This document shows, piece by piece, positions 29,295 through 52,708 of a DNA stretch of 64,000 nt; the first letter of the stretch is position 1; each line of letters starts with the position of its first letter. The stretch is from assembly GCA_027577595.1 (NCBI GenBank), contig JANBRJ010000019.1, positions 62,001-126,000 of the forward strand, written 5' to 3'. A program made the translations under genes and the position numbers. The notes beneath the pieces were generated by a model. It searched no databases. It had not been told where the DNA came from and saw only the letters and a program-made list of their open reading frames with translations. This DNA comes from Coemansia sp. RSA 487 (lineage: Eukaryota; Kickxellomycota; Kickxellomycetes; Kickxellales; Kickxellaceae).

Positions 29295-32200
29295 TTAAAG
29301 CTTGATCTTGAGACGGCGAAGAGGACGCCTCTTTCTAAGGAAGTTGCGAACCGGCCCATAAACAACCAGAACCTGCCAAAGGTTTGATGCGACCATGTTA
29401 CCAATCGAGTAACCCCACAGCGTCCACTTGGCATATGTTGGCAATACATTGTGACCGAGCGGAATGTTGTATGGCTCAATATACACATTCGGCGGTTTGT
29501 ATCCTAGACTGCGCAGGACATCAGGATCACCGCAGTTGACACGGAATGTGCACGACAGAGCGCTGGGAGGACCAAGCTCAGCATATGACATCATGATAAT
29601 GAGCATAGCCCAGATTCCAAGGAGAGCCGGATTGTAGAACCATGCGCGGCGGTACTGGTAGCCGTAGTTGACAAGGAAGCCGTTGTTGATGAACTGGTAG
29701 ATGACGACGTAGGTCAGAATGGCAGCCTCGTAGTTGTCACCTAGAAGCCACCACTGGATCAAGTTGACAGTTGTAGAGTCAAACTCGTGGCACCTGAAAA
29801 AGTCCTGGCGGTAGACCCACACCCAGATGCAGGCCATAAAGCACCAGTTGATAGCAACAACGCCAAGAACGGACGAGAGAATCTCGGGGCCAAGAATACG
29901 AGAGGTTGGGCGGTACTTGGATAGCTTCTTTGCAGTCGGCAGGAACGTAACCGTGATGGCCATGGAAGTAGCAATCAGCGAATCGATAACCATCCACATA
30001 TTCTGGGACATCGAGTCGGCGTGATAGAAAGTGATCAGCTTCGACATGGTCATCGTTGTACCGTAGAGAATGAGCGCGCGGTAGTTTGCAAACGAGGTGG
30101 CCAGGCCAGCGCGGCTCTGGAGCAAAAGCTCAACACAGGACATGATTGAGCGGTTGCTCGAGGCAAAGGGAGAGACAATCGAGGCTTCGGCATCAGAGAG
30201 CGCCAGACCGACGTGGGAGGCACGCAGAGCACCGCAGTCATTGCCACCGTCGCCGCACATTGCTGTAATACCGCGCTCCATATGAAGCTTCACGCAGCGC
30301 ACCTTGTCGTCGGGCTGCATGCGCGCAAAGATGCGGGTGTTCAGAAGCAGCGATGAAATCTGTCCAATCTGGTCAAGATACCTGAATGCCACACCAGTAA
30401 CGGCAAGCTCGGTGGTTGGGAAGCCATCGGGACCCGTTGCTTCAAGCAGGGGCAGAACGTCGCCGACCTCCTCGTTGGTGTCCACGTTGGTCCAGAACAA
30501 AGCGCCAGTCTTCTTGCTGATGTCGCCTAGAATAACAGTGTTGCCGGAAGGAACCATGCTGCACTGGCGAGCAATGTACACGCCGGTCAGTGCTGTGTCC
30601 CCGGTAATCATGACAGTGCGGGTCGAGCCTTCCTTCAGCTCCTTGATAGCTTCGTTGGTATCCGGCTTGAGCATGTTCTTAAAGACCAGGAGGCCGGCAA
30701 ACGCGCAACCAGCTTCCATCTCCTCCTGCGAAAGGTGGCGAAGATCCTCAACCGATCCATCAAATACCTTGTGAGCAATGGAAAGAACATAGCATCCCTC
30801 GCTTGCAAGGCGACTGCAGGTGCTGTCATAGTCGACAGGAACAGAGCTGGCTGCGCAAATGTTCTTGATGCGTTCAAACGAACCCTTGACAAACACGTGG
30901 ATCTTTCCAGTGAGCTCGTCTTGGATAGCGACGGACATTGACGCGCGGGCATGCACAAACTCGAAACGGCGCACAACATGGAGGGTGCCAAACGACGAGT
31001 TCTCCGGTGGGTCAAACCGATCGAGATATTTTGGCTCCGTTCCGAGATTCCACTTGGATGCACGGAACTGCTCGATATCGACGGGGTTACCAATAAGCTG
31101 TCCGTTGAGATCTGTGACAGCGTGGCAGCTAGCGATTGCTTTCTGGAGGATATCGTTGCTTGACACAATATCGCCATTAAACGGCTGGAACACCGCGTTT
31201 TGGCCATTGGCCACCGCTTCCGCTGTAGACTGCACTCCGTAGAACTCGAGTCCTTCCTTTGTCAGTGTTCCGGTCTTGTCAAAGCAGAAGATCTGTACCT
31301 TGCCCGCAAGCATAATGCGCTGCGGATCAACACAGAATATGTTCTTCTTCTTGAGACGATAGGCAGCCATCGACTGCCCAGCAACAAGGCCAGCGGGAAG
31401 CAGAGGCGAGCAAGCCTGCATCATACAGAACATCGAATAGAAGTAGGTCGCGGTCGGAGAGCTCTGGTACAAGTACACCGCCATGGCCATGCAGAACAAT
31501 GCGTACACAACCAGAATCAGGAAGACAACCTTGAGCTCCTCGTTGAAAATAAACGATATTGGCTGCGGGAAGAGGATCTTGCGCACAAGCTTGCCCTTGT
31601 CGGAAGCTGTTCCGGTAAGGCGGACAAGAGCAAGGACGTGATCGTCAGTCAGGAAATCACCGCTCGAGTTCAGCAGTGGTTGGACCTGACTCACGATGGT
31701 ACCGGCGTACAGCTGGTTGTTCTTGTTTACACTGGCGCTGAATGGAGTGTCGTCGACGCTCACAGGGAACTTGCGGATAGGAAGCGCCTCGCCAGTCAAC
31801 GAAGCCTCGTCCATGATTGCGTTGCCGCTAACCAGGATGCAGTCACAGCTCATATGCATACCGGCGGTAAGCCTGATCACATCGCCAGGAACAAGGTCGC
31901 GCGTCGACCGCTCAACCCATTCGCCATCGCGGCGCACCATCAGGTGGTCGTCCTGCTCAGCCATTCTCTTCAGGCGCTCCTCAGAAAGCTTGCGCACAAT
32001 CATGCCAAATCCAAAGGCAATCAGGATGATGCCGGTGTCGACAATACCAACCTTCCAGTACGCATCGTAGTAGAAAAGAGGCATCGCCAGCAGCTGGTAC
32101 AGCGCAATAAAGTTGGTGATCTGGCGGACAAACGCCCAGAACCAGTTTGGAACTTGGACTTCGATAAAGTTGGGACCGATAAGCTCGGCACGAGTAGCCG

Positions 32201-33974
32201 CCTCCTGCTGCGTCAGACCGCCCGCCTTTGCGGTAAAGTCGCTGTTCTTTTCGCCAAGCGAGAAAGAGTAGGGCGCAAACTGGTTTTCGTTGTCGTCAAA
32301 CACAAAGCGCGTGCACTGGAATGTAAAATACTTGCGTCCGTTCTCGGTCTTGTACAGCGGGCAGGTCGATACATTCCAGTCCCAGCCCAGCATATGCTCC
32401 ACAGCCTTGGCGATCTTTTGAACATTGTCCACAAGGATGTGCTTCCTTCCAGAAAGCATAATCTCAGCCTCGATCTTGTGCTCAATGCAAACAAAGCTGC
32501 CAGTATGTGGCAGCGTCTTGATGCGGAAGAAGTTGCGTAGGTGGTTGCGGGTAACTGTCACAGTGACGACAAGGAAAACAAAGAGGCACCACATAACGAT
32601 GAACGTCTGGGTGTTGAGCGTGCAGTCGTCGTACGAGTAGATGCAAGTACCCCTCTCCGGAGTGCCGGGCATGCTGCCATAGTAGTCGGCAGAGATGACG
32701 ATAAGGAAGCAGAACCATACCAGCGCAAGCATCAGAAGCAAAAAGCTCATGGCGGTGCCAAAGATGTTGTTCTTGAAGCCGCTGAGACGGATGTCGTTGC
32801 TCAAAAGATCATTGGTATCTTCGGATTCGTCGTCGCCTGCGATAGCCGCGCCGCCAGCTTTCTGCTTTATCGCGTCTCCGCTGCCGCCAGAGACAACAAG
32901 CGGGGCAGCCTTGCCTTCTGCCACATTAGGACTATCACTGTTGGAAGCCAACGACGAACTGCTGGTGCTGGCCTTCCCGTAGGTGCCCGCAGAACCACGC
33001 CTGCCAAAGAATTCCATGATAAGCTTGAATGCGTACCAGATGCCAAGCAGCGCAATGTAGCCAAACAGAATAGTAAACACGGCAATCCACATGGGCTCGC
33101 GGAAAGTGTACATTTCCTGTGGCTCGTCAGTAGGGCATTCAGCCCAGACGCCAGCGTATCCAGAGCCACTGGTGCCTTGCCGTGGCCAGTTGTCTTTCCA
33201 AGTGCCAAAGTCAGACTGGTTGGAGATATCAGCCTCCGAAGAGCACGCATCACGAACCTGCTGCTTCTCCTCCCAATGATAGAGCTTTGAGATGGTCACA
33301 TTTGAAAGAAGTTGGCATGGGATAAGCGTTTTGGCTGCCGAAGGAATGTTCTTGGTCTTCCAGCCACAGAAGCACGGATTGTTGTTATTGATTTCATCAG
33401 TACAATCGTCGTGGCACTGTCCGTCATGGCAAAGCTTTTGGTTGTTGGGGCAGCTGGCCTCCTGGGGGCAGTTACCAATATCGTATACGCAAATGGCTGG
33501 GCACGCCAAGTTCTGGTCAAGCTCCGGAGGACAAAGGGATCCGTCAGCTTTATACTTGTTGACTACAGTTGCAGGAAATAGACGCAACCGGTAAATAAAA
33601 AAGAAGTAATATTTGTAAAATATAAATGTCAGTTGCTGTGTAAGTAAAAAAGGCAGTGTGGGAAAATAAATTGAAGAAAGCAGTCACTCTTCAAGCAGGT
33701 TTTTTTTTTGGGATGCGTGCCAAAATGAGCCGAGCCGTAACCGCAATATTGGTAGTGCAATTAACAAATGAGCCGAAATCCAGCGGCTATTTATATGGCA
33801 TAGCAAGTGAAAAAACATATGATAATACGTACCAGTATTCCATTGTGGCTTTGCGAAAGCCGTTGATGGCACTAACGACAGCACAAGCAGAAACGCCAGG
33901 ACAGCTGTTGGGACAGCAGCCCAGCGACGCCCGTGTTCACGCTTTATGCGTAGGTTGAGGTCGGGGCGTAACAT
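29295..33974 (-). CDS. P5-type (P5B-like) ATPase with Cys-rich lumenal domain, copy 1
   Basis: Two exons, 33974-33833 and 33562-29295, around a 270-base intron (GTACGT donor, CTGTAG acceptor, phase 1), give 1469 residues. Exon 1 encodes a signal peptide (core AVLAFLLVLSLV, cleavage after about residue 41). Then comes a ten-Cys domain at about 56-118 (LCP, ACPAICV, NCP, SCPNNQKLC, NPCFC), extra membrane helices near 165-195, 290-320 and 330-355, and the ATPase core. The core holds SLTGEALPIRKF (dephosphorylation TGE), FCFDKTGTLTKEGLEF (phosphorylated Asp about 809), VMITGDTALT and MCGDGGNDCGALRASHVG, the last typical of P5 ATPases. The TM4 motif reads SPLLP instead of the usual PPALP. P5B pumps act in vacuoles or lysosomes, often on polyamines; the substrate here is unknown. 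A paralogue lies at 47.2 kb. Confidence 0.92.
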
Positions 33975-36900
33975 TGTCAATAAAAAACCCCTTGGCAGCA
34001 GAATAAAGGATTATTGTGCTGGGCCGTATTCGTCCTCAATAGATGATTTTAGATTAACAAAGCCCTTTGGAGAGAAAATACAACAATGTGATATTGTTTG
34101 TCTCCTGAGTCTACAGTTGTCAATAACACTCCAGAAAATATTTTAGAATACATGGAACAAAGGCCGTGGGAGCACAAGGCAGAAAATTGGCAAAGCGAGG
34201 AACACGATTATTAGTAAAGAGAAGTACTGATAGAGTAAGCAGAGCCATAAATGCCGCGTAAATAAAACACATCCAGGGAGGATTGCATCAAAGATAACGT
34301 ACGCTGACTTGGTTTATAGAATAGGGAAAGAAAATAGAGATATCACTCCGTGGAAATACACTCGCGAGAGCTTGTGGCACGTTTGTCCAAGATAACAAAA
34401 TGAGCATGAACCGCAAAAAGTTTACAGTAACAGACGAAATTATCAAATATTAAAGAGTATGTTTATAAAAAAAACTTCGTGGAAGCTCGTTAAAGCTAAG
34501 CGATAATGGAGACGGGTATCAGAACGGCGCGCTAGCTTCCAACCCTTTATATATATATGGTGGCGCAAGAGGAGCAGCAGACTTGTGCTTGAAGGAGATA
34601 CCATCCGTTGCCTCCCCTTTTCCCCCTATTTTTGCGTTCTTTGCTAGACAGCTACTTTCCATGCAAGGTAAATAACCCGAAGCTTTTCATTATGCTCGGC
34701 GCTGCAGTGCCAAACAACAAATATACCTTTATTCGCCAGCTTGTGCGCTGTCGTCACCTTCTAAAGCTTCTTCAGTTTGTATGCATACATACGTATTCGC
34801 GATGCACTTTGAAAAGCTATAGATAATTGTCTGCAAATCCTAAGACTCGGTTGGTTAGCAACATTATCCTTCGAAACTGCTTTTAAGGACACACACACCA
34901 TTGGCCTCCAGGAGGGCACGCTTAGTCCTAAAGAGGAAACACCAGATATACTCTTCTTGGATGCTGGCGATTATGTTACGTGTGTAACAAAAGCAGCCCT
35001 AGTATTATTGATACTTGAGTGATACCAAAATATAGGCCAGGAAAGGCCGACAGAATGAAATATACGGTAATCAGGTGCAGAAAATGTAATTACTTTTTCA
35101 GTTGTTTGGTTGTCTGTTTTGATTGGCAGGCGGTGTACATCATTTCTATGCGCAATGATGACATGGGAATCTGAGCGCAATTACATTTGATTGCACTAGC
35201 TTTTTGCGGAACTAAAAGCAACTAAAAGCATGCTCAAGCCGGAGGATTATTGGTTGGCCATAAAATCAGGTGTCTGCGCCTTTCTCTTTTTGGAAATCCA
35301 GGAGAGAAAGTCATACGTCGACTTAAACGCAGGAGTAGGGTGTCCATAGTTGTCTGGCAGGATACAAAGTCGGTGTGCAGGCGGACGATTCACGCCGCAT
35401 GTACGTATAGAGAATAATCGGTATTGGTGCGTTCAAGCAAAACAATAGAGATAGAGACGACTGCGATCGGCAAAAAGATGTTTGTATGGCAGTGTCAGCA
35501 AGCAATGCCACCAGTCAGCTGAGGCTACCAGAAGAACATAATCTCCATCAACGCATGCAATCGATATCTACCAATCTATCAACAGATGGCATGTGTTGTT
35601 GAAAAATAGAGGATGAATCGCCAGTAGGCTGTTCTCTTTCCTCTATTTTTGACAATGCGAAGAAAATCATAGTGAGAGACACCGCAAGCTATATCACAAT
35701 ATGCGCATGTGCCATTTTGGTGTTTTGGAAGTGTTACTTGGATGGCGAGCAGAAATCATCAACATCTCTAACAACACCGGCACGTTTCCGCCGCCATTCG
35801 CAAAAACAAACGGTACTACAAGCAATGCAATCAAATGAAATGGAATTTATCAACAGATATACCAGTTTTTGGCGACAAGCTCGTCCATACGCGTGGTCTG
35901 TGTTGGATATCCAAGTGACTGCCCAAAGTTTCGGAAGAAAATACATGTTTGGAAATATGTTGAAAAGCAAGCTGATCCATGTGTTATGCAATGGAGGTTA
36001 CAGTTCAAATCCAATACATGCGGAACTGTAAAGGTCGGCTTTCCGGGCACAGAAAAAAAAGCAGGGGGATCTTTCCGAGATGCGTCGGACTTGAACCACC
36101 TCCAACTTTCCACGGTAATAGTGTTTGCAGCTTCAATGGATATCCAGATATGTGTGTTGCGAAAGCACAGCAACATCACCCAGATGGGCAAAAAAAGCCT
36201 GCACGTTTTCGCTAAATATGGCTCGTAGCTTGAACATGTCAAATCAAATCAGACGCGGGTTAATCAACGTGATATCATGTTACCGTAATCAGACGCACGT
36301 GGCAGTGAATCGATTGTTTCGAAAGACTATGTGATGTGTGCTGATTGGAGATAATTTTGACACCAATGTCACGGGAACAGCTGCGCATTGGCTGTAGGGT
36401 CTGAGTATGAAACAAATAAAAGAAAAATGAAGTTTTTTTTCGCCTTCTCTCCGTCGTCTTGCTTTCTGTATAAAGGCTTTCTTTTCCCGCTTTGTCTCGG
36501 CGTAATAAAAATAAAGGTAAGTCCTTCGCTTTTTCCTTGAGCGCGTGAACAGAAATTAACAGAAAGTCCTTTTTATTTCGTAATCGAAAAGGATAACGCT
36601 ATCTCGCCCATCCTATTACACGTGATGGCTGAGGCAGAGAAAAATATCAAACCATAAGTGTACGATTGGCATGCGGAAATGGGCAGTAGGTATAAAAAAG
36701 AGACTGTTTGGGCGGGAGATTTCCCACTATATATACTGCGATTGAAAATTTTTACCTTTTTTGTTTCCCTTTCCATTTTTTTATAAATTAAATAAAGTGC
36801 TTGCTGTTTCTCCCCCTTTTTGCTTGCTGCACTTTAAACAATCCTGATAGTAGCATACTCTGTAAATATACAAGTGCGCTGTCCAAAATAAAAATAAAAT

Positions 36901-37070
36901 AAAAACAGAAATACCCTTAATACTGTTGCATTTTTCCAACACGAATAGAAACCAATCCATCTATTAGTATATAACCACCCCTCCCACTTTGCAAACCTAC
37001 CCTTCTCCCCCCTCCGTTTTGACGCGTGAGTATACTAAGCGGCCTATTGCTTTCTCTTATTTTACGATTA
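33975..37070. other. 3.1-kb spacer with no recognised gene
   Basis: AT-rich and gene-poor. Overlapping short frames on both strands at 35.67-36.24 kb have no start context or family and are contradictory, so none is called. An isolated tRNA B-box-like GGTTCAAGTCC sits on the minus strand near 36095-36105, without a tRNA fold around it. A TATA run at 34541-34556 and another at 36728-36735 are promoter-like. From 36780 the plus strand turns T/C-rich, as in leaders elsewhere. Confidence 0.45.
36728..36735 (+). promoter_or_regulatory. possible TATA element of the TBP gene
   Basis: TATATATA about 340 bases upstream of the TBP ATG, at the edge of the T/C-rich leader. The position suits a TATA box with a long leader. 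No other gene is nearby on this strand. Assignment is inferred. Confidence 0.3.
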
Positions 37071-38034
37071 ATGGCCTTTGTTACTCCTTCGAGCAGCCAA
37101 GGCGGTGTTGTCCAGACCGTCAGCCACCACTCTTTGAGCCTTCCCATGTCCGCATCGGCGGCAAATGGCATTGGCCAGAAGAAGGCGGCAGCCGATCCCA
37201 GCGTGTCCTTTGACACCGGTTCTCAAAACAACACCGCCGTGCCAGCAGAAACTCAGCAGGAGAGCACTGATGTCTCTGGCGTTGCTGGCATTGTTCCGAC
37301 GCTGCAGAATATTGTGGCCACGGTCAATCTGGACTGCCGTCTTGACCTAAAGACCATTGCGCTGCATGCTCGCAATGCAGAATACAATCCAAAGGTAAGC
37401 ATTAAGCACGTGTTCTACTGCTGGTATTACTTTTACTTTGCTTAACATGTCTGTAGACGGGCAGGCAACAATTGCTGCATTGTTATATTGTGGTTATTTG
37501 AAAGAGTTTGGATTAAAAACAACCATGTCTTTTTCTATCTGAAATGATTTATATCTTTCCAAACAACTTGCGGTGGGGAGGAATGTGGGTTCATCTTTCT
37601 AGCGTTTTGCGGCAGTCATCATGCGCATTCGTGAGCCAAAGACCACAGCACTTATCTTTGCGTCCGGCAAGATGGTTGTCACCGGAGCAAAGTCCGAGGA
37701 CGACTCCAAGCTTGCCGCACGCAAGTACGCGCGTATCGTCCAGAAGCTTGGGTTCCGCGCAAAGTTCACAGACTTTAGGATCCAGAACATTGTTGGGTCG
37801 TGCGATGTAAAGTTCCCCATCCGCCTCGAGGGCTTGGCGTACTCTCATGGCAAGTTCTCGAGCTACGAACCAGAGCTGTTCCCAGGGCTTATCTACCGAA
37901 TGGTCAGACCCAAAATCGTTCTGCTCATCTTCGTCTCGGGCAAGATTGTGCTGACTGGAGCCAAGGTGCGCGAGGAGATATACCAGGCGTTCCAGGCCAT
38001 CTATCCTGTGCTCACAGAATTCCGAAAACCATAG
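37071..38034 (+). CDS. TBP: TATA-box-binding protein TBP
   Basis: Exons 37071-37394 and 37603-38034 (208-base intron, GTAAGC donor, CTAG acceptor, phase 0) give 251 residues. A variable N-terminus of about 72 residues rich in Ser, Ala and Gln is followed by the two TBP repeats. Repeat 1 starts [16 protein letters not shown] and crosses the intron at [19 protein letters not shown]. Repeat 2 starts [20 protein letters not shown] and ends [14 protein letters not shown]. The DNA-intercalating Phe residues and basic stirrup residues look conserved. TBP nucleates RNA polymerase I, II and III preinitiation complexes. The intron lies in the first TBP repeat. Confidence 0.97.
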
Positions 38035-38561
38035 AGCTTTCTTCAGATCTGTCTGTCTCTCTCGTCGATTCATCATTGCTCGTTTTCTTTTCATTTTCCA
38101 CAGTCAAGCTCATATTGCATAGCGCGGGGCCATGTAAGGTGTTGCAAGTCTTGGAAAAGGAAGAGCTGCGTTCTCAGGTTAAACTTTCCTTACAAACTAC
38201 TTTTTATCTAAAAATCGCTTTGCCTTTATTTGTCGCTGTTTGAAGCGTTCTTTCTTTTCTATTCTCTTAAATGTACACTAAACTTTATTACTTTTCGGAA
38301 AGTACAAGACAAAACAAACCGATGACGCGTGTCTGTTTTATCTGAAAGCGCTGGTTGAAGAGAAATTCAGAGCTGTAGACGAGAAAGATGAGAAAAAAGT
38401 ATTTGTGCTCTTTTTTTCCTTTACATTTTCTCTATCTCATTAAACATCTGCTTTCCCACCCTCTCTCCACATTTACTCCATTACACCTTGTTTTGTAATA
38501 CTAAAAAAAAAGCCAATACTGCTTCTATAGCCCAGGCCTCCTCATTCTTTTGACTAAGCCA
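38035..38561. other. spacer and pyrimidine-rich leader of CSN6
   Basis: About 530 bases between two plus-strand genes. It is CT-rich on the plus strand (38400-38520), with no coding frame. Confidence 0.4.
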
Positions 38562-39842
38562 ATGTTAGCACGAGATTCCGCAGCCGCAGTGCTTCATCCG
38601 CTGGTTCTTTTGAACATTTCGGAGCATGCGACACGTATGGCAGCGCTAGTACGCTGCAACAAGGGTGCCAACACAAGTAGTGGAACACAAGCAGCAGCAG
38701 CAGCAGCACTGCCGCCACTGGCGGTTGGAGCACTGCTTGGGAACCAAGTCGAGGGGCGGTACGAGGTTTTCCTATCGTTTGAGCTGAAGGTGGAAAAGGT
38801 AAACGGCGAAGTGAACATCGACTCACAGCACTTTGAGATCCGGCTTGATCAGCTGAGAGTGATCTTTCCGAACCACGAGTTCATCGGATGGTACGTAGCA
38901 AGCTCGAGCCTTCATCTTTCGCCGCTTATGCTGGAGCTGCACACCAAGCTAGTCTCTAGTAACCCGTCTGCGCTGCTTCTTGTATTTGATGCGAGCTTGG
39001 CGGGCGAACAGTCCGATGGGCTAAAGTATTCGCTGCCCGTTGCAGTGTACGAGACGAAACAGCCAATGCCGATAAGTCGGGCCAAACTGCAGGACGGGAA
39101 ACAGGCGGGCGATGGCGGAGAGGAGAGCATACCAGAGTACTACGTTGAGGTATTTGACGAGAACCGTGGCGTAATAAGCGGCGACCAGAGCACTGTGATG
39201 GCATCGAAGCTTGCACCGATGCGCATCGTGATAGAGTCTGGCGAGGCTGAGCGCATAGCTACAGAGCATGTGGCAAACATCTCGCGGACTGTTGCGGACG
39301 ATGGCGTAGCCACTGTGGGAGGCAATGGCCAGGGCGCGCAAGCAGGACCTGCCAGCGGAGGAGTCACAGGTAGCACGCCCCAGATAGCGACGTTCCTGGC
39401 GAGCCAGCGCATCGCGATCGAGATGCTCCGGAGAGACTTGGGTGTGCTCAAGACATATGTGGGCGATGTAATCAACGGCAAGGCGCCGTTTGACCCGGAC
39501 GTGCTGCAGATCGTGCAGCGGGTGCTGAGCAACCGGCCTGTGGTCAAGGACGATGCGATGTTTGAGCTGGCTATGGCACAGGAGGAGACAAACTACCAGA
39601 TGGCGTCGTACCTTGCCAGCATCACAAAGGCGGTGGCTTCGGTGCGGACCGTGTCGTTCAGAGCCAACACTGCGCTGGAAGCTGCGCGTATCACCAACAC
39701 TCCTAAAGTCAACCCGAATCAGGACAGCATGTTTGATCTGGGTATGGGCGGAATGATGACGATGATGGGTGGCAGCAGCGGTAGTGGAATGGGTCGTCGA
39801 TTAGGTGGCCGTTCGAGGGGATTTGGCGGTGATATGCGTTAA
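38562..39842 (+). CDS. CSN6: COP9 signalosome subunit 6
   Basis: A 426-residue MPN-minus subunit of the COP9 signalosome, which removes NEDD8 from cullin-RING ligases. The ATG at 38562 (MLARDSAAA) is used; the frame above it starts at TTG. The N-terminal MPN domain (about 10-145) begins VLHPLVLLNISEHATRM and contains VGALLGNQVEGRYEV, IGWYV and VAVYET, but no zinc-binding JAMM motif, as expected for CSN6. The C-terminal half has AERIATEHVANISR and then FLASQRIAIEMLRRDLGVL, the helical bundle of the family. The last 30 residues are Gly/Met-rich (MFDLGMGGMMTMMGGSSG) with Arg-Gly repeats, an extension absent from animal CSN6. Confidence 0.92.
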   Translation: MLARDSAAAVLHPLVLLNISEHATRMAALVRCNKGANTSSGTQAAAAAALPPLAVGALLGNQVEGRYEVFLSFELKVEKVNGEVNIDSQHFEIRLDQLRVIFPNHEFIGWYVASSSLHLSPLMLELHTKLVSSNPSALLLVFDASLAGEQSDGLKYSLPVAVYETKQPMPISRAKLQDGKQAGDGGEESIPEYYVEVFDENRGVISGDQSTVMASKLAPMRIVIESGEAERIATEHVANISRTVADDGVATVGGNGQGAQAGPASGGVTGSTPQIATFLASQRIAIEMLRRDLGVLKTYVGDVINGKAPFDPDVLQIVQRVLSNRPVVKDDAMFELAMAQEETNYQMASYLASITKAVASVRTVSFRANTALEAARITNTPKVNPNQDSMFDLGMGGMMTMMGGSSGSGMGRRLGGRSRGFGGDMR

Positions 39843-40060
39843 ATGTCTGTGACTCTTGATAATTTACATATCTTTTTCAAAAAAAAAAATTGGATTTTGT
39901 CGCCTCTTTTTTCCTTTTCGATTGTTTGTTCTTTTATAGCTCTACTAGTGCTCTAGCATTCATTATTTTCTTTCAAAAAGGGAGTAATATAAGAAGCGAA
40001 TTTGCACGTTCGCGCTCGCACGCTCACATTTGTAGTCACTTACAAGACCCGAAGCGTAAA

Positions 40061-40879
40061 ATGGCGTCAATTCCGCCCAGCCAGACGCTCTACATTCGCA
40101 ATTTGAATGACAAAATACAAAAGGACGTACTAAAGCGAACGCTATACGAGGCATGTGTCGGCTACGGGCGGATACTGGACATAGTGGCTCTCAAAACCAT
40201 AAAGATGCGGGGCCAGGCCTTCATAGTGTTCGAGGACATTGCCACGGCAACAGTAGCGTTGCGGCAACTGAATGGGCGGGCGGTGTTTGGACGGGCGATG
40301 AATGTCGAGTATGCACTGTCAAAGTCCAACATCGTTGCGCAGCAGGATGGGACGTTAAAGTACGGAGAAGAACGCACACATATGAGCGCAAAGGAGCGGA
40401 AGCGGCTGCTTGGTATTACCGACGGCAGCAGCGCAGCTACTGCCAAGCGTGGACCGGAGGACGAAGCGGGAGATCAAGAGCAAGAAGAGGACGGCCACCT
40501 GGCTAAGAAGCAGGCAGTTGGCGAGAACTCTGATTCCGATGCCGAAGACAGCGACGGCAGCAGCGACGTTGGGCCACTACCACCATCTATTGATAGCAAC
40601 GGCGATCGCAGATCGGCAGACCGAGCAGGCGCTGAGGATGAGCAGATGCCGAGTCAGACACTATTTGTCAGCAATATCCCAGAGAGCGTGTCTGCCGAGA
40701 TGCTGGGCGGTCTGTTCCAGCAATACGTGGGGTTCAGGGAAGTACGGCTTGTCGCCGGGAAGGGCGGTGTGGCGTTCATAGACTACGAGAGTATTGAATC
40801 GGCCACAGCAGCACGTAAGGTGCTCGACGGTTTCAAGCTATCGGCCGATCAGGCCATGAAGGTCGATTTCTCTCGTTGA
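40061..40879 (+). CDS. U1A/U2B''-type snRNP RNA-binding protein
   Basis: A 272-residue spliceosomal protein of the SNRPA/SNRPB2 (Msl1) group, which binds a stem-loop of U1 or U2 snRNA. RRM1 at about 6-85 has the RNP2 motif LYIRNLNDKI and the RNP1 motif RGQAFIVF, with the KMRGQAF segment specific to this group. A charged linker of about 100 residues (EDEAGDQEQEEDG, SDSDAEDSDGSS) separates it from RRM2 at about 195-272 (TLFVSNIPESVS, GGVAFIDYE), which runs to the C-terminus as in this family. The ATG at 40061 is the first that leads directly into RRM1. The sequence alone does not decide between U1A and U2B''. Confidence 0.92.
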   Translation: MASIPPSQTLYIRNLNDKIQKDVLKRTLYEACVGYGRILDIVALKTIKMRGQAFIVFEDIATATVALRQLNGRAVFGRAMNVEYALSKSNIVAQQDGTLKYGEERTHMSAKERKRLLGITDGSSAATAKRGPEDEAGDQEQEEDGHLAKKQAVGENSDSDAEDSDGSSDVGPLPPSIDSNGDRRSADRAGAEDEQMPSQTLFVSNIPESVSAEMLGGLFQQYVGFREVRLVAGKGGVAFIDYESIESATAARKVLDGFKLSADQAMKVDFSR

Positions 40880-42228: not shown

Positions 42229-45200
42229 ATGAGTAGCCACACGCCGATTGCTAAGCGCAGCCCTGCAGAAAATGGTATGGTTTTTTTTTAGCATTTGTTG
42301 TTCATGTTCAGTCAAACACTTTCATGTCCTGCATGTGCTTATTAGTAGTTCTTACAACATTTTCCTTTTTTTTTTCTCTCGTGTAGCAGTCAGCAACAGC
42401 CCATTAGGAATGCTTGCCGCTATTGCTTCACCGTCGTCGGCAACAAAAACACAGCCATCCACTCATACTTCCACAACAGCAACAACTCCGGGCAACAATC
42501 CTAGACAGACTAAAACTGACAGTGCCCAGCTGCCAAGTAACCTGCTGGTGGATGCACAATCAAATTCGGGATCCGCATCGCCGCCGCCCTCGCCCAGCAC
42601 AAGTGCCGCCATGCGGAAAGGAATGGCGATGTCAAAAGCACTAGCCGTGTCGGAAGAGGCCGATGCTGGGCGGCAGGTAGAAGAGCAACGGCGCCTGTCG
42701 CCCGAAGACGGGTCTGCCGAATCGTCAGCCATAGTCCCTGTCTCTGAACAATCGCCACCACAGGCCCGTCCACTTGCAATTCCAGCATCGCAGCTAGACG
42801 TTCTTGCCTTGGTCACAGCAACAAGCCCGCCGATGCCCAGTCGACGTCGATGGGGTGCAGCGCCCAGCCACAACATCACTCCCAAGCCTGCAGTGTCCCA
42901 CGACCATTCGGACGGCAGCGACACCGTCTCTGAAGATGAGCTGACGTTGCGCTCGCATAGCGCGCGGATTCGATCCCGCCATCACGCGGTTCAGCTCCGC
43001 CCGCTGCCACATGCCCACAATGAGTTTGACGCTGACAGTCATGGAGCTCTTAAATTTAAATCAGCTGCCAACCAGCACGATCGCTATCAGCAACAGCAGC
43101 GTCTGACGATGTCTGCTAAACCACTGCGGTTCCACGGGCCGATTACACGCACAGCCAAACCACAGGGCTTGCATCAAAATGGCGCCCGCGTTAGAAGGAG
43201 CAGCGGCGAAACAACCGAAACTGACGAAGAAAATCAGCAACAGCAGCAGAAGCTGTCTGGGCATACGATGACGCCGCGTGGTCGGAGATTCGTGGGGTAT
43301 CCTCCACCTAACGCTGCTATTGCTGCTTCAAGCGCAGCTGGGATAGCTGCACAATCGATGGCACCAGCCTCAGAGCCCGCGATACACCGGCGGACACGGA
43401 GACACCGCTTGCACGAGAACGCGCGGGGCGTTGTTCTGTCGAAGCAGCTTTCGGAGCTCACCGAAGAGACTGAGGGCAACGATGGCATTGGCGGAGCGCA
43501 CGGCGAACCGAGCAGGTCACCCGAGTCCTCGCTGTCGCTATCTTCTTCCCCGTCAGCATCGCCATCGCGGCAGCAGAGGATGCGGACAAAGCGCTTGCGT
43601 GCACGCAAACGTGTCCAGCAGTCAGGCTCAGAGACTGAAACCGATGTGGAGATGGCCAGCAGGCTTCCTGGATCCGAAACCGAGACCGATCCTTCTCTCT
43701 CCAACGGAACTAGCACTCCGTCCGCTGGAAGTGGCAGTGCAAATGGAGCAGCGCTTGCTGGTGGAGCTGCTACATTTACAGATGCGCGGAATGGCACACA
43801 CCGCAGGCTTGTTGGTAGGAGTAGCAGCACAGTTAACCGTCTGCCGCCCTTTGCCGGTGACAGAGCCTCTAAAGATGGGACAGCGCCCAGCACTGGTTCA
43901 CGGCCTATGCTTCCGCCAATCGCTCAGCTCGATCGGTACATACGGCCGAGACACCAAGGTGAGCGGGATAGAGCCGATGCTCTGGAAGATCGGGATGGCG
44001 GCAACAGCAGCGGTGGCGAAACAACCGAGACCGACGAGGAGTTCTTTGGCCCATCTCGCGCGTTCCATTCAAGCATCAGGCCGTCCAAGCGCGTCGTTCG
44101 GCATCTGGCCAGCCTGCGCGCCCAGCAGAGCCACCCTCCAGCGGCGCTCCAGCTGGGCGCCAGGCCTAGACCGCCGCACCCTAGCCGCCGCCACCTGGAT
44201 GCACACGATCGGGCTTACAGCATACAGCCTGAAGCCCCACAGCCGATCAGCAGCGGGAGCAGCAACGGTGGCGGCGGGTATGGTCCGCATTACTCGATTG
44301 ATGGCCAGTCATACACTGCGCCGGTGAGCGCAACCGACCCGTCAGGAAATGGCGGCTTTGGGCTGGGGATCGGCTCACTAGATGGCGACTACGAGCATCG
44401 TGGCACTGGTGTAGCAGTTTCGCAAACTCGTGTTGTGTCGACTCCTGAATCGGTGGCCATACCAAGTATGTCGTCGGCAATACGGGGCACTCCACGACCA
44501 GCGCCCCGGGATGCTGCTTCCGGCTATGCAGCCGCGCGTAGTGACCACATAGGCGGCCGCCCCGTACGCGCTAACAGCGGCGCCAGTTCGTCATCGCACA
44601 ACAGCAGCATGCGTCGTGAGTTTGCGCGCGATCCGTTTGCACCAGTGGCCAACGAGTTCACTTACCACGGTGCTGCATTGCGGCGGCTGGAGAAGTCATA
44701 TGTACGTGGTAGCGCCTTGGCTAACGGCAATGGACCACCATCGTCCTCATCTGCTGCTGCTGCAGCTGCCGCCGCCGCGGCTAACCGTAAACGGGCTCTT
44801 ACAGCTCCTTCATCGTACGATCCGCCAGGCTTTGCGTCAGGACGAGGCGGGCTAGGACGTTATGCTCACAGCGGTGTTGGCATTAGTGGGCGCGCTATCA
44901 GCTCCTCTGAAGCGTTCTTCGATGACGACCACGATGCTTCCCAGCGAGGGAGGGCCAACCGGTCTCTGGCTTCCTCAAACGCTGGCACTCCGCCCGAGTG
45001 GAACCAGCCGCTCGATGCGCGCATCCATCCGCTGGGCGTCTCGCCAGTATCGTCGCTTCGCTCCTCTCTGCTCTCCCACCAGCACAGGGCGTTTCCTCAG
45101 CCACCGCTCTCGTCCGCCAACAGCCCGACAGTAAGCACCACCAATGCGCATCATCAGGCTGTAGCTGCGAAAGCGACAGCAGCAATCGAACCAGCGCACG

Positions 45201-45529
45201 GTGGCGAAAGTGGCACATTCGCCGTAGCGCCAGAGGAAGAAGAAGAGGACCTGCACGAGCGCCCGGTCTCGCCCAGCATGGACGCTGTGCTGCGCCAGAG
45301 CCGTAAAAGACAGCACTCGTCGGGCGCCATAACGCTGCCGTTCTCGGACTCATCGCCTCTGAGCCAAAGCAACAAGAATTCAGACGACACTCGCTCCCCG
45401 TCCTCCAAAAGACGCGCACACGTAGAGGATAAGGAAGAGCCTTCGCACAAGACTGCCCCCAGCTCAGCATCACCGAAACCCAACGACGTTGTGTTTCCTC
45501 CAATTGGTCCCGACTCACCGCAAAGCTAA
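42229..45529 (+). CDS. long disordered Ser/Ala-rich protein with ETETD motifs
   Basis: Exon 1 is 42229-42274 (MSSHTPIAKRSPAEN) and exon 2 is 42387-45529, joined across a 112-base intron (GTATGG donor, GTGTAG acceptor, phase 1), giving 1062 residues. The frame of exon 2 runs back through the intron only by chance. The protein is almost wholly low-complexity, rich in Ser, Ala, Gly, Arg, His and Pro, with no folded domain seen. Acidic Thr/Glu motifs recur: SGETTETDEEN, SGSETETDVEM, GSETETDPSL and SGGETTETDEEF, plus VSEDELTLRS. Such motifs fit casein kinase 2 sites. There are Arg-rich basic patches between (KRLRARKRVQQ). The C-terminus is acidic/Ser-rich. Function unknown; scaffold or regulatory roles are guesses. 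Confidence 0.72.
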
Positions 45530-47187
45530 TTCCAATTCAGCAAAAGCAAACCAAAATAAAGTATATAGAAATTTTGGTCAGTTTGTAGCTAATTTTTATC
45601 GCCAGCTCCGTTGCATGCTCCTTAAAGCAATACAAAGGATAATAAATTCCGAGCTTGACTCATAAGCAAATCATCACTCCAAATTTCTAGCTTTATCGCA
45701 AACAAGAGTTTATTTTGCAAGTTCCGATTTACCGCACACCCACGAAATTAAATATATTTCAAGCTCATACGGCAATCGAACCTGTGAACGAATGGTTGCC
45801 ACTGGAAAGAGTGGAGCCAGAAGCACACCTAAACGCGCTTTTGTTCAACCCAAATATCAAAACTCGGATCCTAAAATTTTTCACGAAGGCGCTGCAAATG
45901 CACATTTTCCTTCCCAGTAATATGCTGATTTGATCTCAGACATGCCGAATCAAGCTTTATATCCATGGGCTGGGAAAGAGCCTCCCTCCCCCTCCTGTCG
46001 TGTTCAACAAAGGCTCTGTTGCTCTACATGAGAGGTTGGGGCATCAAGGCAAAAGGGGACAAAATATTTTCTACTTTTAGCCCAGCCACAGATTAGAACG
46101 GACTCTGCTAAAGAAATAAAATTGTGCGGCGATTTTTTGTCATTGGTTTCCTCATTTGGTGAGAGCAGCCCGCAAATTCAGCACAGATATTTTTCTAACG
46201 TTTATTGGACAAAAAGAAATGAACAGAACAGCCTTCAGAGAAAAACAAGAAAAGGCAATTGGATTGCGGGATAAGAGACAATAATCGTATGACCCGGCCA
46301 TACAGAAACACCACACTCACAGCATATGATAGGCACAGTGACATCATTGTGGCGATCGCGCTGAATGAGATGTCGGCACTGTCAATACTCCCTCCAATTA
46401 ATAGCAGCAGTGCAATTCGGAGCCATTACGTTTGCAGCATCCATCTTTCGGGAATTGTGGATTCATATAAGGAAATTTCTCCCCCCCACCAATTACTCTT
46501 TCTTAAGCACCCCTTTTTAATCAGGCGGGTTTTCGAAGACAAAAGCAGACGGATCCGTATCATCTGAAAATGGAAACGGCTGGATCGGCCTTCCTCTCAA
46601 TCGCATATCAAGCCTGTCTACTTGACCCTGCTGATGTTGTACAATGTGATGTAGAGAAAAGAGTGGATGATTTAAGAGAGGTAGCAAATACGCATCCTCT
46701 TCAGTGTATTTCCACATTGGTCAAATGCGGTAACTCAAAGAGGGGGCTGGTTTAAATATTGTGCGTAAAAAGTCCCGCACCTATTAGCTTTTTTAATGTC
46801 GCACAGTGAGCAAACATAAAATACTTCAGCTTCTAATCATTTCCCTGTTCGTATTATCTCTTGTGAGATATCAATCCATTGGAATAAACGTCCAATTCAC
46901 TGGGGAAAAGTATTGTTTTTTTTGGAGTCTGGAATCCTCTCTTCCCTCTTCTACACAGCACCTGCCAATCCAACCCCCTTGGCCACTTGCTCGCGCTGTG
47001 TTATATAAACTGAACATATGCCAAAGGCCCTCCGACTGAGCCCTTTTTTAAATTCCTAATTTTCGTTTCATTATTTTCTATTCTCCATATATTTAATACC
47101 TACAACGGCTTTTTACGTCGGTTGATAAAATCTTTTTATAGTTTTATCAACGATCATCTCTATTATTTTGTTTGTTGGATATTAGCA
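45530..47187. other. AT-rich spacer, weak coding-like stretch near its left end
   Basis: About 1.65 kb. A plus-strand frame at 45715-45933 reads EPVNEWLPLERVEPEAHLNA and further charged residues, but has no ATG; it could be a lost exon or chance. The rest is AT-rich. A T/C-rich leader precedes the second P5-type ATPase from about 47060. Confidence 0.4.
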
Positions 47188-50100
47188 ATGGCGACAAGAG
47201 TCAGTAGAGCTGTGCGTCCGTTCATGCGCATCATCGCTCTTTTGGCAGTCACGCTGTTGTTGCTGCAGTGCACCTGTGTACACGCCAAACCACTTTTCAA
47301 TTCAGGTAAGCGATTAAACCGGCATTTAGTTACTTTGAGATTCGCAAATAAAGCCCCCATCCTTCTTTCGCACACGAAATATACAATACTAACAATGGAA
47401 TATTACGTCCACACACATTATTTTCTTGCATTATAGTCAACAAGTACGATGCCAATGGGAACCTGTGCCCACTGCGCGAGCGCACTGGAGAGCTGTGTCC
47501 CCAGGTGTGCGTCAGCGACGTCGCGCTGTGTCCAGAAGGATTCGGTGACGATAATTGTCCCAATGGCCAGAAACTTTGCATCGACGGCACTTGCAGCGCC
47601 GATTGCGGCAACATCCTAGCCCGCAAGAACCCCTGCGGGTGTACCTTCCAGTATCCCCCGGAGCAGGCGAAATTCCTGGTTCCTTGCGCCGCTTTCGGCG
47701 AGGTGACCATCGAGCAATACAACAAAGACGACATCAGCCAGACGATTGACTTCTGTACGGACAAGTTCAATGTCTCTGGAAGTATGCCGATATGGGGTGA
47801 TTGGGATGGTACTCAAGAGGGATCCGATGGGTCCCAGATCGATGGCCGTCGCTTCTGGACTGGCGATCAGTGCCCTACCGCACCAAAGTACTACTACACA
47901 TACCATGAGCCCTTGTGGATTGGCGTATTCTCGTGTGTTGGTGCCGAGGCGCTTGTCCTTCTTATATGGATGGCCTACAAGTTTATTCGCGAGATTCCTG
48001 TCAGGCGTTTGCGCCATAGAGAAGCCGGGTTCACCACGGCCACATCTGCTAATGTAGCTGGCGCCCCTTCTTCTGGCAACGATAGCGAAAAGACCAGCCT
48101 TACAAAGGACATACCCGACGAGAAAAAGGGCAAAGCTGCCTCTTCAAGCTCTTCAAAAGATGACGACGAGGATGCCGATATTCATATCAAGGGGTATAAC
48201 AATGACTTTTTGGGCTGGATCGGCTTTGCCTCGATTATTCTTACATCTCTCGGATGGATCATCTGGCTGGGATTTTGGATTGGCGATTACTATGGCACTC
48301 TGGGCGAAGCAGACTCGCTTGCCCTTTACAACAGTGCTCTGCTGGATGAAACCTTTATCCCGATCTGGATCTTTGCAGTGGCATGGACCGTTACCTGCTG
48401 CGTCTTCCTGGACAGAATTCGCAACTTTTTCCGCATCGAGTGCCTGCCTTCAGAGGGCCAGTATGTGCAGATCGAGCGCGACCTGAAAGAGCTCAAGATG
48501 GCAACATCGACATCCAAGTTTGTTGCGTTTGCAAAGCTTGTCGAGGAAAGGTTTGTAAAGCTCATCAAGGCAGATGTATTTGTCACGACATGCAAGGTAA
48601 AGCAGCTTCCCGAGACCAAGCTACGCTATTTTAACTATATGTGCACTCGCTATGTATTTAACGAAAAGACAAAGCAGTACGGACCATATTTGTTCGACAT
48701 GGGCGAAACACACCGGCAGATCCACACCCATTCCAAAGGGCTCACCAGCCAGGAGGCCGCTACCCGCCTGTCGCTTATTGGCCCCAACTTCATTAGCGTC
48801 TACGTGCCGAGCTATCCGCTTGCCTTTGTGCTCGAGCTGGCAAACTTCTTCTATCTGTACCAGCTGATGATCCAGGTTATCTACTGGTACTGGAACTACT
48901 ACGTGATTGGTATCATCGACACCTGTATTATCCTGCTGTCCGCAATCGTCAAGGTCTTCGTCCGTATCCGCGGCGAGCTGCGCGTCAAGCGCATGGCCGA
49001 ACACAGCGAGGTGTGCACAATATTCCGCGACAACGAATGGCAGGAGCTCAGCACCATTGATCTTGTGCCAGGCGACATTTTCAAGGTTGTTGCTGGCATG
49101 CATGTCCCTTGCGATGCCATTGTTCTTGGCGGAAACATCGTTGTCGACGAATCGTCGCTCACTGGAGAACCGCTGCCTATCCGCAAGTTCCCGATCCACG
49201 AGGACGACGGTGTTTACGACAAGAGCGGCGCTGGTAAGATCAACACCCTTTATGCTGGAACAAGCATTTCCCAGTCACAGGAAGTCACTACTTCAGACGG
49301 ATCTATCTCCGAACCGATCGGTATATGCTTGCATACTGGAACGCAGACAGACAAGGGCCAACTGGTGCAGCAGATCCTTTTCCCGCAGCCCATCTCGTTC
49401 ATCTTTGACGAGCAACTGCGCCTGGTCTTCGGGATCCTTATCATCTATGCGATCATCGTCTTTGTGCTTGCCATGGTCTTCTACCAGACCAAGCCCTCGG
49501 CTGCCTGGTTCTACGCAATGTTCTCCAGCTCGCAGCTCATCTCGCCGCTCATTCCCGCTGCTTTGGTGATGGGCCAATCTGTTGCTGCCGGGCGTCTGAA
49601 GAACAAGAAGATTTACTGTGTCAACCTCCCGCGTATCATCATGGCAGGTAAAGTGCAAATGTTCTGCTTTGACAAGACCGGCACGCTCACAAAGGAAGGT
49701 CTAGAGTTCTATGGCGGTCTCTGCGCCCAGACAGCCTCGTCCAGCGCAGCTGCAGCAAGCGGCGATAGCCAGATCAGCACAATCTCGTTTTCTCCATTTG
49801 TCGAGTCGTTTGATGAACTTCCGGACAAGATGCGCACAGCAGCAGCTACATGCCACGCGGTTGCTGAAGTAGAAGGCGGCCTAATGATTGGAAATCCGGT
49901 AGATATCGAGATGTTCCGCACTACAAAGTGCAAGATATCAAAGACACCGACAGTAGGCGCCCTGGACACAATCGTTGTTCCCGAAGAAGGCGACAGCGGC
50001 TACAAGCTGGATATCGTCAAGCGCTTCGAGTTCTTGCACGCGCGCGCGTCCATGTCTGTGGCTGTTCGCGATCCACGCGACGGCCATGTGCATGTCTTTG

Positions 50101-51695
50101 TCAAGGGGTCGTTCGAAAAGGTCAAGGAGCACCTGGACAGCTCAACTGTTCCCAGCGACTACCTTGCTGCAGCAAACAGCATGGCACGTCGTGGTGGGTA
50201 CGTGCTGGCCATAGGGCATCGCGATCTAGGCGACATTGACGTTTCCGAGATGCAAAACTGGACGCGTGACGACATGGAGAATGGCTCTGCAATGGTCGGA
50301 TTTATTGTCTTCAAGAACATGCTGAAGGAGGACACACCAGAGGCCATTGCCAAGCTTAAGGAGGGATCCACGCGCACGGTTATGATCACTGGCGACACTG
50401 CGCTTACTGGTGTGTTTATTGCAAAGAGCGCTGGTTTGATGAGCGAAAAAGCGACCGTGTACCTGGGCGATCTCGACAAGTCCGGAGAGCTGTACTGGGT
50501 CGATGTCGATAAGGAGGAGCCGGTTGACCAGAGCCAGATCGACAGAGTTATTTCCAAAACCACCGATGGCGGCGACTATGAGCTTGCAATGACCGGAAAG
50601 GCGTTTAACAGGCTAGACGAGATCGGGATGATCCGGCAGTACGTTCTACACACCCGCGTTTTCGCACGCATGCTTCCAAACGACAAGGTGAATTGCGTGC
50701 AGCTTCATATGGAGCGCGGATTCACTGCGATGTGTGGCGATGGTGGCAATGATTGCGGGGCTCTCCGCGCTGCGCATGTTGGCCTGGCGCTATCCGATGC
50801 CGAGGCATCGATCGTCTCGCCGTTCTCGAGCAGCGACAGGTCAATCAACTCGTGCGTCGAGCTTCTGATCCAGGGCCGTTCGGCTTTGGCCACATCGTTT
50901 GCCGGATACCTGTATCTGATTCTCTATGGGCAAACGATGACGTTCCTCAAGATCTTCTCGTTTTACTTCTCCAACACAGCCTCCAGCAACACATGGATCT
51001 GGATCGATGCGTTCATCAACACGATCATGTCGATCTGTGTGGCATACAGCGGACCAGCGAAGAAGCTTTCCAAGCACAGACCAACCGCAAGAATCCTTGG
51101 TCCTCAGGTCATGACTACCGCCGGTGGAACCGTTGCGATCAACTTCATATTCCTTGCCTGTTCATTTGCGTGGCTGTACAACAAGCAGTGGTTCCGCTGC
51201 AACGAGTTTGACTCAAGCTCCACGGATATCGCCAAGTGGTGGCTGCTTGCTGACAACTATGAGGCAAGCGTTCTTGCCATTGTCTGCCTGTTCCAGTTTG
51301 TCAACAACGCAATGGTAGTCAACTTTGGCTACTATTTCCGCCGCCGCTGGTACCGCAACTATGCGCTTATCTTCCTTTGGGCTGTATACGTTGCGATAGT
51401 CTCCATCGTGCTTTTGGCAAAGACCAACTGGCTTGGGTGTCGCTTCCGTATAAACTGCGGATCAAAGGACGCTCTGGCCAGCGATTTTAACATCCACCCG
51501 TCATTCTACATCGAGGACTACAACAACCTTCTTGGCCACAACGTAATCCCAACAGACAGCCGCTACGAACTCTGGGGAATTTGCATTGGCAACATGTGTG
51601 CTACTGTGCTTTGGCAGCTGGTTGTTGCTCTCTATCCTGTGCATTCGTGGACAAGAAAGAAGCGGCCTCTTCGCAGACTCAAGGTCAAGCTGTAA
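47188..51695 (+). CDS. P5-type (P5B-like) ATPase with Cys-rich lumenal domain, copy 2
   Basis: Two exons, 47188-47305 and 47437-51695, around a 131-base intron (GTAAGC donor, TATAG acceptor, phase 1), give 1458 residues. Exon 1 is a signal peptide (MRIIALLAVTLLLLQCTC, cleavage near VHA-KPLF). It is followed by the same ten-cysteine domain as copy 1 (LCP, LCPQVCV, LCP, NCPNGQKLC, NPCGC), then extra helices (IGVFSCVGAEALVLLIW, GFASIILTSLGWIIWLGFW) and the P-type core. Core motifs are SLTGEPLPIRKF, FCFDKTGTLTKEGLEF with Asp near 785, VMITGDTALT and MCGDGGNDCGALRAAHVG. The TM4 motif reads SPLIP. All catalytic residues are intact. The intron lies exactly where it does in copy 1, so the two are duplicates; they are diverged throughout. 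An AATAAA lies at 51760-51765. Confidence 0.93.
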
Positions 51696-52195: not shown

Positions 52196-52634
52196 CTATT
52201 GGCGCTTTTGTGTGGCTGCAGGTATATTACGAATGCTCTCTCCGCTGCTACTTTCGCCAAAGTAAGCGCTTTCAGTTGCGTTGCCGCTGGTTCCCTCACC
52301 TCCCAGCGATGGCGACAGGGCCATTAGCGACAGGGACGATGTTGAAAGCCTCATCGACAGTGCAGGCGTATGAAGCGATCCAGTGCAGTCTGCTGGCTGC
52401 GAAGCAGAGGTGAATTCTAAACCACCAAGTTCTGCGACAGAGCCTTTAATTCCAGAGTTGCTTGCTGCAGGTTGCCACAACTGAGTCATCGACAGCTGCG
52501 ACAAAGACCTTTGTGGCTGTAGCTGGTGCTGGAAAGAGGGCTTTGACGAAAGTCTGCGCTGTCCAATAACACCAGCACTTGGCCTCCTATCAAGCAAAGG
52601 CGGGTGGATCTGCTGCTGCTGCTGCTGCTGCTGC

Positions 52635-52708
<74 letters not shown>

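Follow-up and report, generated by a model that had tools for sequence, protein, structure and literature searches.

The 64,000-nucleotide stretch of DNA from Coemansia sp. RSA 487 analyzed here (the window; part of contig C19 of a genome of 17.79 Mb in 184 contigs) contains two genes for intact P5-type ATPases, designated A (minus strand, 33974-29295; product of 1469 amino acids) and B (plus strand, 47188-51695; 1458 amino acids), which lie head to head with ~13 kb between them. Both products carry a signal peptide, an ectodomain with 13 cysteines, a membrane helix (TM0), a linker and two further helices (Ma and Mb), followed by a complete P-type core. Together with their homologues they represent a real, conserved P5 lineage that is separate from the sampled P5A and P5B ATPases and possesses an added disulfide-rich ectodomain; we refer to this putative third lineage as P5C. 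A sequence-only reading of the window had proposed the opposite orientation and the spacing of the two genes as well as an intron at the same codon and in the same phase, and the gene models agree with it on these points; its signal peptide, Cys-rich luminal domain, extra N-terminal helices and complete P-type core were recovered by alignment, hydropathy and AlphaFold2.

Gene models, family and the N-terminal ectodomain

An alignment of proteins A and B over 1455 columns shows 45% identity, and the introns of their genes, both in phase 1, interrupt the same codon, i.e., the Val codon of a shared N-(T/S)-V-N-K-Y motif. Two paralogues in the same genome (C46 and C123; 47% and 43% identical to exon 2 of gene B, respectively) have no intron and encode the start, signal peptide, ectodomain and pump in a single uninterrupted frame. 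Furthermore, a deposited protein of 1458 amino acids from Coemansia sp. RSA 1813 (P0001) is 100% identical to B over the full length. The join of exons 1 and 2 is thus supported even without RNA, and the possibility of wrong gene models was rejected on the same grounds. A recent inverted duplication was rejected as well, as A and B are found in different subclades of all three trees (see below); in one of these, A is joined by a sequence from Kickxella and B by one from Martensiomyces. The "inverted pair" of the sequence-only reading therefore holds for the head-to-head layout but not for a recent inversion; A and B are old paralogues. In Coemansia sp. RSA 2336, a B-like (P0010) and an A-like protein (P0015), each encoded on a contig of 105356 bases, have consecutive locus tags (EV183_001631 and EV183_001630), and the paralogues seem to be linked there too.

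The family was assembled from three protein searches, to which gene A and the C46 and C123 paralogues were added, and comprises 98 sequences (96 fungal and 2 diatom), partial and poor models included. The first search revealed at least 15 members among the best 120 of 133 matches, the second 52 new members (all 53 matches belonged to the family, one being already known), and the third at least 28 new members among the best 120 of 255 matches. Note that the searches scored only candidates sharing words with the query, and the taxon list is therefore a minimum, from which no absence in Dikarya or animals follows. Among the matches listed, members are present in early-diverging fungi, namely Kickxellales, Dimargaritales, Harpellales (Smittium), Mucorales, Umbelopsis, Calcarisporiella, Basidiobolus, Neoconidiobolus, Thamnocephalis, Blastocladiella and the chytrid Lobulomyces, and also in two diatoms. 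No member was found among the 80 of 547 prokaryotic matches listed; these matches and the single viral one are 22-26% identical to the query, begin at query residue 381 or later, and look like ordinary P-type cores. The host genome encodes four family paralogues (A, B, C46 and C123), one P5A and two P5B ATPases with standard motifs, and the four matches to the ectodomain in this genome are all inside the four pumps, with no stand-alone copy among them. Open-frame stretches that are almost the same are located near both ordinary P5B genes on contig C38 (L009, 167-433; L010, minus strand, 7009-7275), which suggests a repeated or mobile element.

A crude hydropathy rule predicted a signal peptide in 53 of the 61 scorable sequences (37 of 98 were left unscored, 30 being without the search motif and 7 too short upstream); five of the eight failing sequences look truncated at the start, and three are just below the threshold. 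With a second measure, 51 of 59 sequences passed. The 13 cysteines of the ectodomain are invariant in an alignment of 77 sequences, and in the complete set each of these columns contains Cys in every sequence that has a residue there (90-94 of 98), which is more than chance would give. Exactly 13 cysteines are present in the ectodomain of 88 of 90 sequences.

The AlphaFold2 model of the N-terminal part of B has a mean predicted local distance difference test score (pLDDT) of 82.9; the ectodomain is mostly confident (block means of 67-94), whereas half of the linker is below 50. In this model, a long helix starts as TM0, and two long helices corresponding to Ma and Mb precede the P5 N-terminal domain. 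The Ma and Mb segments are hydrophobic in 85/85 and 83/84, respectively, of the long sequences (at least 1340 amino acids). Three predicted helices ahead of the cytosolic catalytic domains would place the ectodomain on the far side of the membrane, consistent with a cleaved signal peptide. At least one sequon is present in the ectodomain of 87 of 95 sequences, and the raw density of sequons per 100 residues, not controlled for composition, is 0.96 in the ectodomain vs. 0.24 and 0.30 in the two large cytosolic parts, giving modest support for a luminal ectodomain.

The fold of the ectodomain gave no clear match. Four ectodomains had no Pfam match up to an E value of 10, which leaves room for distant homology to Cdc50 or the Na,K β-subunit, and a profile search of the PDB with the ectodomain gave a best E value of 0.15 (Notch label). 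With the 440-residue N-terminal model as query, Foldseek found nothing at E ≤0.001, and its top-ranking rows fall on the P5 N-terminal domain; this result says little about the ectodomain since the query contained more than the ectodomain alone. Residues 179-296 of the family member P0012 (TM0, linker and Ma) match the Ctr copper transporter profile below the threshold (22.5 bits; cut-off, 25.3).

The P5 core and its place among P5 ATPases

The catalytic motifs are intact in A and B and conserved throughout the 85 long sequences (DKTGT in 83, TGE in 84, TGD and GDGxND in all 85, KG(S/A)xE in 83-85). The residue following the first TGE is Pro in 65, Ala in 11 and Ser in 2 of 84 sequences (the usual motif is TGES). 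For A, B and each of three further members, TIGR01657 is the top-ranking family; among these five, B (631) and P0012 (654) exceed its cut-off of 618, and the other three fall just below it. The AlphaFold2 model of the core has a mean pLDDT of 86.5, and P5 structures came first in both fold comparisons, the core being closest to ATP13A2 and the P5 N-terminal domain being included. The family as a whole thus clearly reads as P5 ATPases by sequence.

Some characters separate it from one or the other known class. The P-domain segment is 22 residues long in six members and in six P5Bs, which have no arm, compared to 142-165 residues in three P5As. PF12409, the membrane-dipping N-terminus of P5B, is present in both P5Bs of the host and unmatched in A, B, P0012, P0014 and P0201, and PF23143 (P5A) gave no match in the five members tested. 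In the trees (29 family sequences, six P5B and five P5A references), the family formed one clade with support of 100/99, 100/98 and 100/100. The sampled P5Bs (100/99, 99/99 and 98/96) and P5As (100/100 in all three trees) each formed a clade without it. The distinct P5 subclass that the sequence-only reading had considered possible is supported by these trees, as none of them nested the two genes within ordinary P5B, an outcome that this reading had named as refuting. In the available part of PMC10654040, P5 ATPases are divided into the subfamilies P5A and P5B, and no third class is described in the literature searched, including the available parts of PMC10654040, PMC8233418 and PMC12655044 (older P5 phylogeny papers, e.g., Moller 2008, were outside its scope).

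Cargo pocket and luminal loops

Of the 96 fungal sequences, 91 have an M4 signature of the form [SC]P[LI][LI]P, in most cases Ser-Pro-Leu/Ile-Leu/Ile-Pro; of the others, one has NPLLP and four are unmatched (two models without the region, one interrupted, one SVLLP). Both diatoms have PPLLP. None of the 96 sequences with a residue there (two of 98 are gapped) has Ala at the position corresponding to PPALP, a motif present in 6/6 P5B references, and none of the 96 is acidic at the PP[DE]LP position, where 5/5 P5As have Glu. Spermine in ATP13A2 is contacted by D254, D463, D960 and D967 as well as by W251 and F963 (PMC8564547, available part), and work on Ypk9 stresses the Asp residues of TM4 and TM6 (PMC8233418). 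In the family, D463 corresponds to Phe (90/96 fungal sequences, 2/2 diatoms), D254 to Tyr (86/96 fungal) and D960 to Gln (65/96 fungal; Glu or Asp in 13/96, Glu in both diatoms), whereas D967 is Asp in 98/98. F963 corresponds to Trp (92/96 fungal, 2/2 diatoms), Trp is found at the position of W251 in 85/96 fungal sequences, and the M5 Tyr is kept in 97/98. Thus, judged by the alignment, only D967 is invariant among the four aspartates that bind polyamine; D254 and D463 are replaced, D960 is exchanged in most sequences, and the pocket reads as aromatic residues around one invariant carboxylate. This loss of two or three of the four acidic residues and gain of aromatic ones suggests that the cargo is probably not a polyamine and would be less charged. 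Vitamin B12, an idea derived from the spread of the family over early fungi and diatoms, is a disfavoured cargo, as Mucor and Rhizopus carry the family despite the probable loss of B12 use in Mucorinae (PMC8085122, available part).

The luminal loops carry invariant cysteines as well, one between M7 and M8 (96/96 sequences with a residue) and two between M9 and M10 (94/94 and 93/93). All 16 cysteines (13 in the ectodomain and three in the loops) are present in each of the 85 ungapped sequences, both diatoms included (13 of 98 are gapped), and the loops contain exactly 1 + 2 cysteines in 68 of 98 sequences, a larger number in 25 and a smaller number or none in 5. As both sides have an odd number of cysteines, the simplest pairing would be a disulfide that joins the ectodomain to the pump, and the joint conservation suggests such a bond. 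Furthermore, the M9-M10 segment comprises 51-55 residues in five members, whereas four P5Bs have 26-28 and three P5As have 24 (ATP13A2, Ypk9, Spf1 and ATP13A1 are excluded, as their rows end before or inside the region). The M7-M8 segment (30-32 residues; P5B, 26-30; P5A, 23-24) is not clearly enlarged over P5B. Extended luminal loops were proposed for P4A pumps to accommodate their β-subunit (PMC10654040, available part, comparing P4A with P4B), and we read the ectodomain as β-subunit-like because of this link.

Features of genes A and B in the window
Feature	Position	Strand	Basis or remark
A, exon 1: start codon, signal peptide (~residues 1-41), first mature residues	33833-33974	-	conserved Ala before x-P, cleavage-like, in family alignment
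A, intron, 270 nucleotides, GT-AG, phase 1	33563-33832	-	position as in gene B intron; absent in C46/C123 paralogues
A, exon 2: ectodomain, TM0, linker, Ma, Mb, P5 core, stop TAA	29295-33562	-	
A, Cys-rich ectodomain, exon 2 part, residues 49-197	33114-33560	-	alignment
A, TM0, residues 203-227	33024-33098	-	hydropathy across family
A, Ma helix	32679-32771	-	alignment to gene B model
A, Mb helix	32526-32606	-	alignment to gene B model
A, M4 signature SPLLPA	31392-31409	-	
A, phosphorylation motif DKTGT	31266-31280	-	
A, M7-M8 luminal loop, invariant Cys	29733-29801	-	
A, enlarged M9-M10 luminal loop, two invariant Cys	29439-29570	-	
B, exon 1: start codon, signal peptide (~residues 1-33), first mature residues	47188-47305	+	P0001 identical
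B, intron, 131 nucleotides, GT-AG, phase 1	47306-47436	+	
B, exon 2: ectodomain, TM0, linker, Ma, Mb, P5 core, stop TAA	47437-51695	+	
B, Cys-rich ectodomain, exon 2 part, residues 41-196	47439-47906	+	alignment and AlphaFold2 model
B, TM0, residues 198-222	47910-47984	+	start of AlphaFold2 helix 198-239; hydropathy
B, cytosolic linker, residues 223-294	47985-48200	+	pLDDT <50 at 240-245 and 247-276 (~half)
B, Ma helix, residues 297-325	48207-48293	+	model and hydropathy
B, Mb helix, residues 339-362	48333-48404	+	model and hydropathy
B, M4 signature SPLIPA	49542-49559	+	
B, phosphorylation motif DKTGT	49671-49685	+	
B, M7-M8 luminal loop, invariant Cys1294	51183-51254	+	
B, enlarged M9-M10 luminal loop, invariant Cys1374 and Cys1380	51414-51554	+	

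The region between A and B contains, among others, genes for a JAB/MitMem_reg protein (38550-39839) and an RRM protein (39890-40876) as well as an open frame with no Pfam match (42248-45526). The gene at 52196-55483 has a long polyglutamine tract and three matches to RRM.

A putative fused luminal subunit and the rival explanations

The best explanation, which we consider moderately probable as a whole, is that P5C is a third P5 lineage with a remodelled pocket, in which the ectodomain acts in cis as a β-subunit-like module and the cargo is probably not a polyamine. Of its elements, the sequences themselves show the separate clade, the order of the domains, the catalytic residues, the set of cysteines and the substitutions in the pocket; topology and fold are backed by predicted models, and the disulfide, the β-like role, the class of cargo and the direction of transport are inferred. 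The cleaved signal peptide would take the protein into the secretory pathway, so that the Cys-rich and probably glycosylated N-terminal domain, anchored by TM0, would be exposed on the luminal or outer side, and a flexible cytosolic linker would lead via the Ma/Mb hairpin to the P5 catalytic core. The ectodomain may rest on two luminal loops, the enlarged one between M9 and M10 and the one between M7 and M8 with its cysteine, and be fixed there by one or more disulfides. It could serve in folding and exit from the endoplasmic reticulum, as a luminal gate or in cargo capture, thus filling in cis the role of the separate β-subunits of P4A and Na,K-ATPases. Candidates for the cargo are an amphiphile, a quaternary ammonium compound or a mono-cationic amine, presumably taken up from the luminal side and released on the cytosolic side by analogy with P4, P5A and P5B pumps. 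We put forward only tentatively, as a guess that may well fail, the bolder version with three ancient P5 classes, the third of which would predate the split of fungi and diatoms, would have been lost in many groups, and would combine a cis-fused, disulfide-clamped β-subunit with transport of a cargo other than a polyamine, which would pass an aromatic pocket that has one invariant carboxylate.

Several observations weigh against this interpretation or parts of it. In approximately unbiased (AU) tests, forcing the family together with fungal P5B gave a p-AU of 0.022 on 1028 columns but a borderline 0.054, above 0.05, on core columns. A sister position to P5B (p-AU of 0.476) or P5A (0.31) was not rejected, and the trees are therefore compatible with a third ancient class as well as with a deep sister of P5B or P5A. 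Only two, related, diatoms are among the matches, and their genes could be due to transfer between lineages. The P5B references themselves vary in the pocket (at D254, Asp in three, Glu in two and Tyr in one of the six; at D960, Asp in four, Asn in one and one gapped), making D463 and the M4 motif the firmer differences. The linker has 0.68 sequons per 100 residues and the luminal loops only 0.13-0.27, and the cysteine counts would be compatible with an unpaired cysteine or an intermolecular link as well.

The same pocket variation and the tolerated sister position to P5B would fit a P5B-type polyamine pump of divergent sequence to which an ectodomain was added, with cargo and mechanism unchanged, an explanation that we regard as unlikely. 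The label "P5B-like" of the sequence-only reading is half right: it holds for the armless P domain, to which the core fold, the M7-M8 length, the M5 Tyr and the invariant M6 Asp (D967) can be added. However, the N-terminal hairpin is P5A-like, PPALP is absent, D463 and D254 are replaced in most sequences, and PF12409 matches both P5Bs of the host but none of the five members tested; the host thus already has two standard enzymes of this type. The signal peptide, the ectodomain, the predicted Ma/Mb helices, the M9-M10 loop of twice the length, the three luminal-loop cysteines and the separate clade distinguish the family from ATP13A2 and Ypk9 as well. Of the extra N-terminal helices, Ma and Mb have a counterpart in P5A, so that only the ectodomain and TM0 are new compared to both P5 classes. 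A P5A-like dislocase of transmembrane helices, whose ectodomain would receive clients on the luminal side, is nevertheless very improbable: the family shares with Spf1 and ATP13A1 the two membrane helices before the core and the P5 N-terminal domain, and the AU test did not reject a sister position to P5A, but the family lacks PP[DE]LP, the P-domain arm and a PF23143 match, has an added ectodomain, forms a separate clade and coexists with a standard P5A in the host genome.

The invariant M6 Asp and the clearly P5 sequence and fold also argue against a lipid flippase-like pump, in which the neutral M4 site and the luminal domain would mimic a P4 ATPase with Cdc50. We hold this to be rather unlikely, somewhat more so than an altered P5B pump, even if the uncharged M4 site with its surrounding aromatics, the Cys-rich, sequon-bearing luminal domain and the longer M9-M10 loop resemble P4A pumps with their glycosylated β-subunit and longer loops (PMC10654040, available part). 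The likeness to P4A-Cdc50 or Na,K-ATPase with its β-subunit, i.e., a membrane-anchored luminal domain beside a P-type pump, is an analogy only, as the ectodomain is fused in cis to the N-terminus of a P5 pump and has no Pfam match. Finally, a receptor derived from a pump, in which the ectodomain would act as a sensor or touch the cell wall and transport would be secondary, would suit the charged, partly disordered linker between TM0 and the pump and an ectodomain without a known fold. The conservation of ectodomain and loop cysteines together, which points to a structural link with the pump, and the nearly complete retention of the catalytic motifs make this improbable, if less so than a dislocase.

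A third P5 lineage with a remodelled cargo site would be a natural test of which residues set the choice of cargo in P5 ATPases, and makes the question of other P5 cargo directly testable. Profile annotation would name some members polyamine exporters, a name that the pocket residues do not support. The fused luminal subunit, if true, would be an independent invention of the β-subunit principle.

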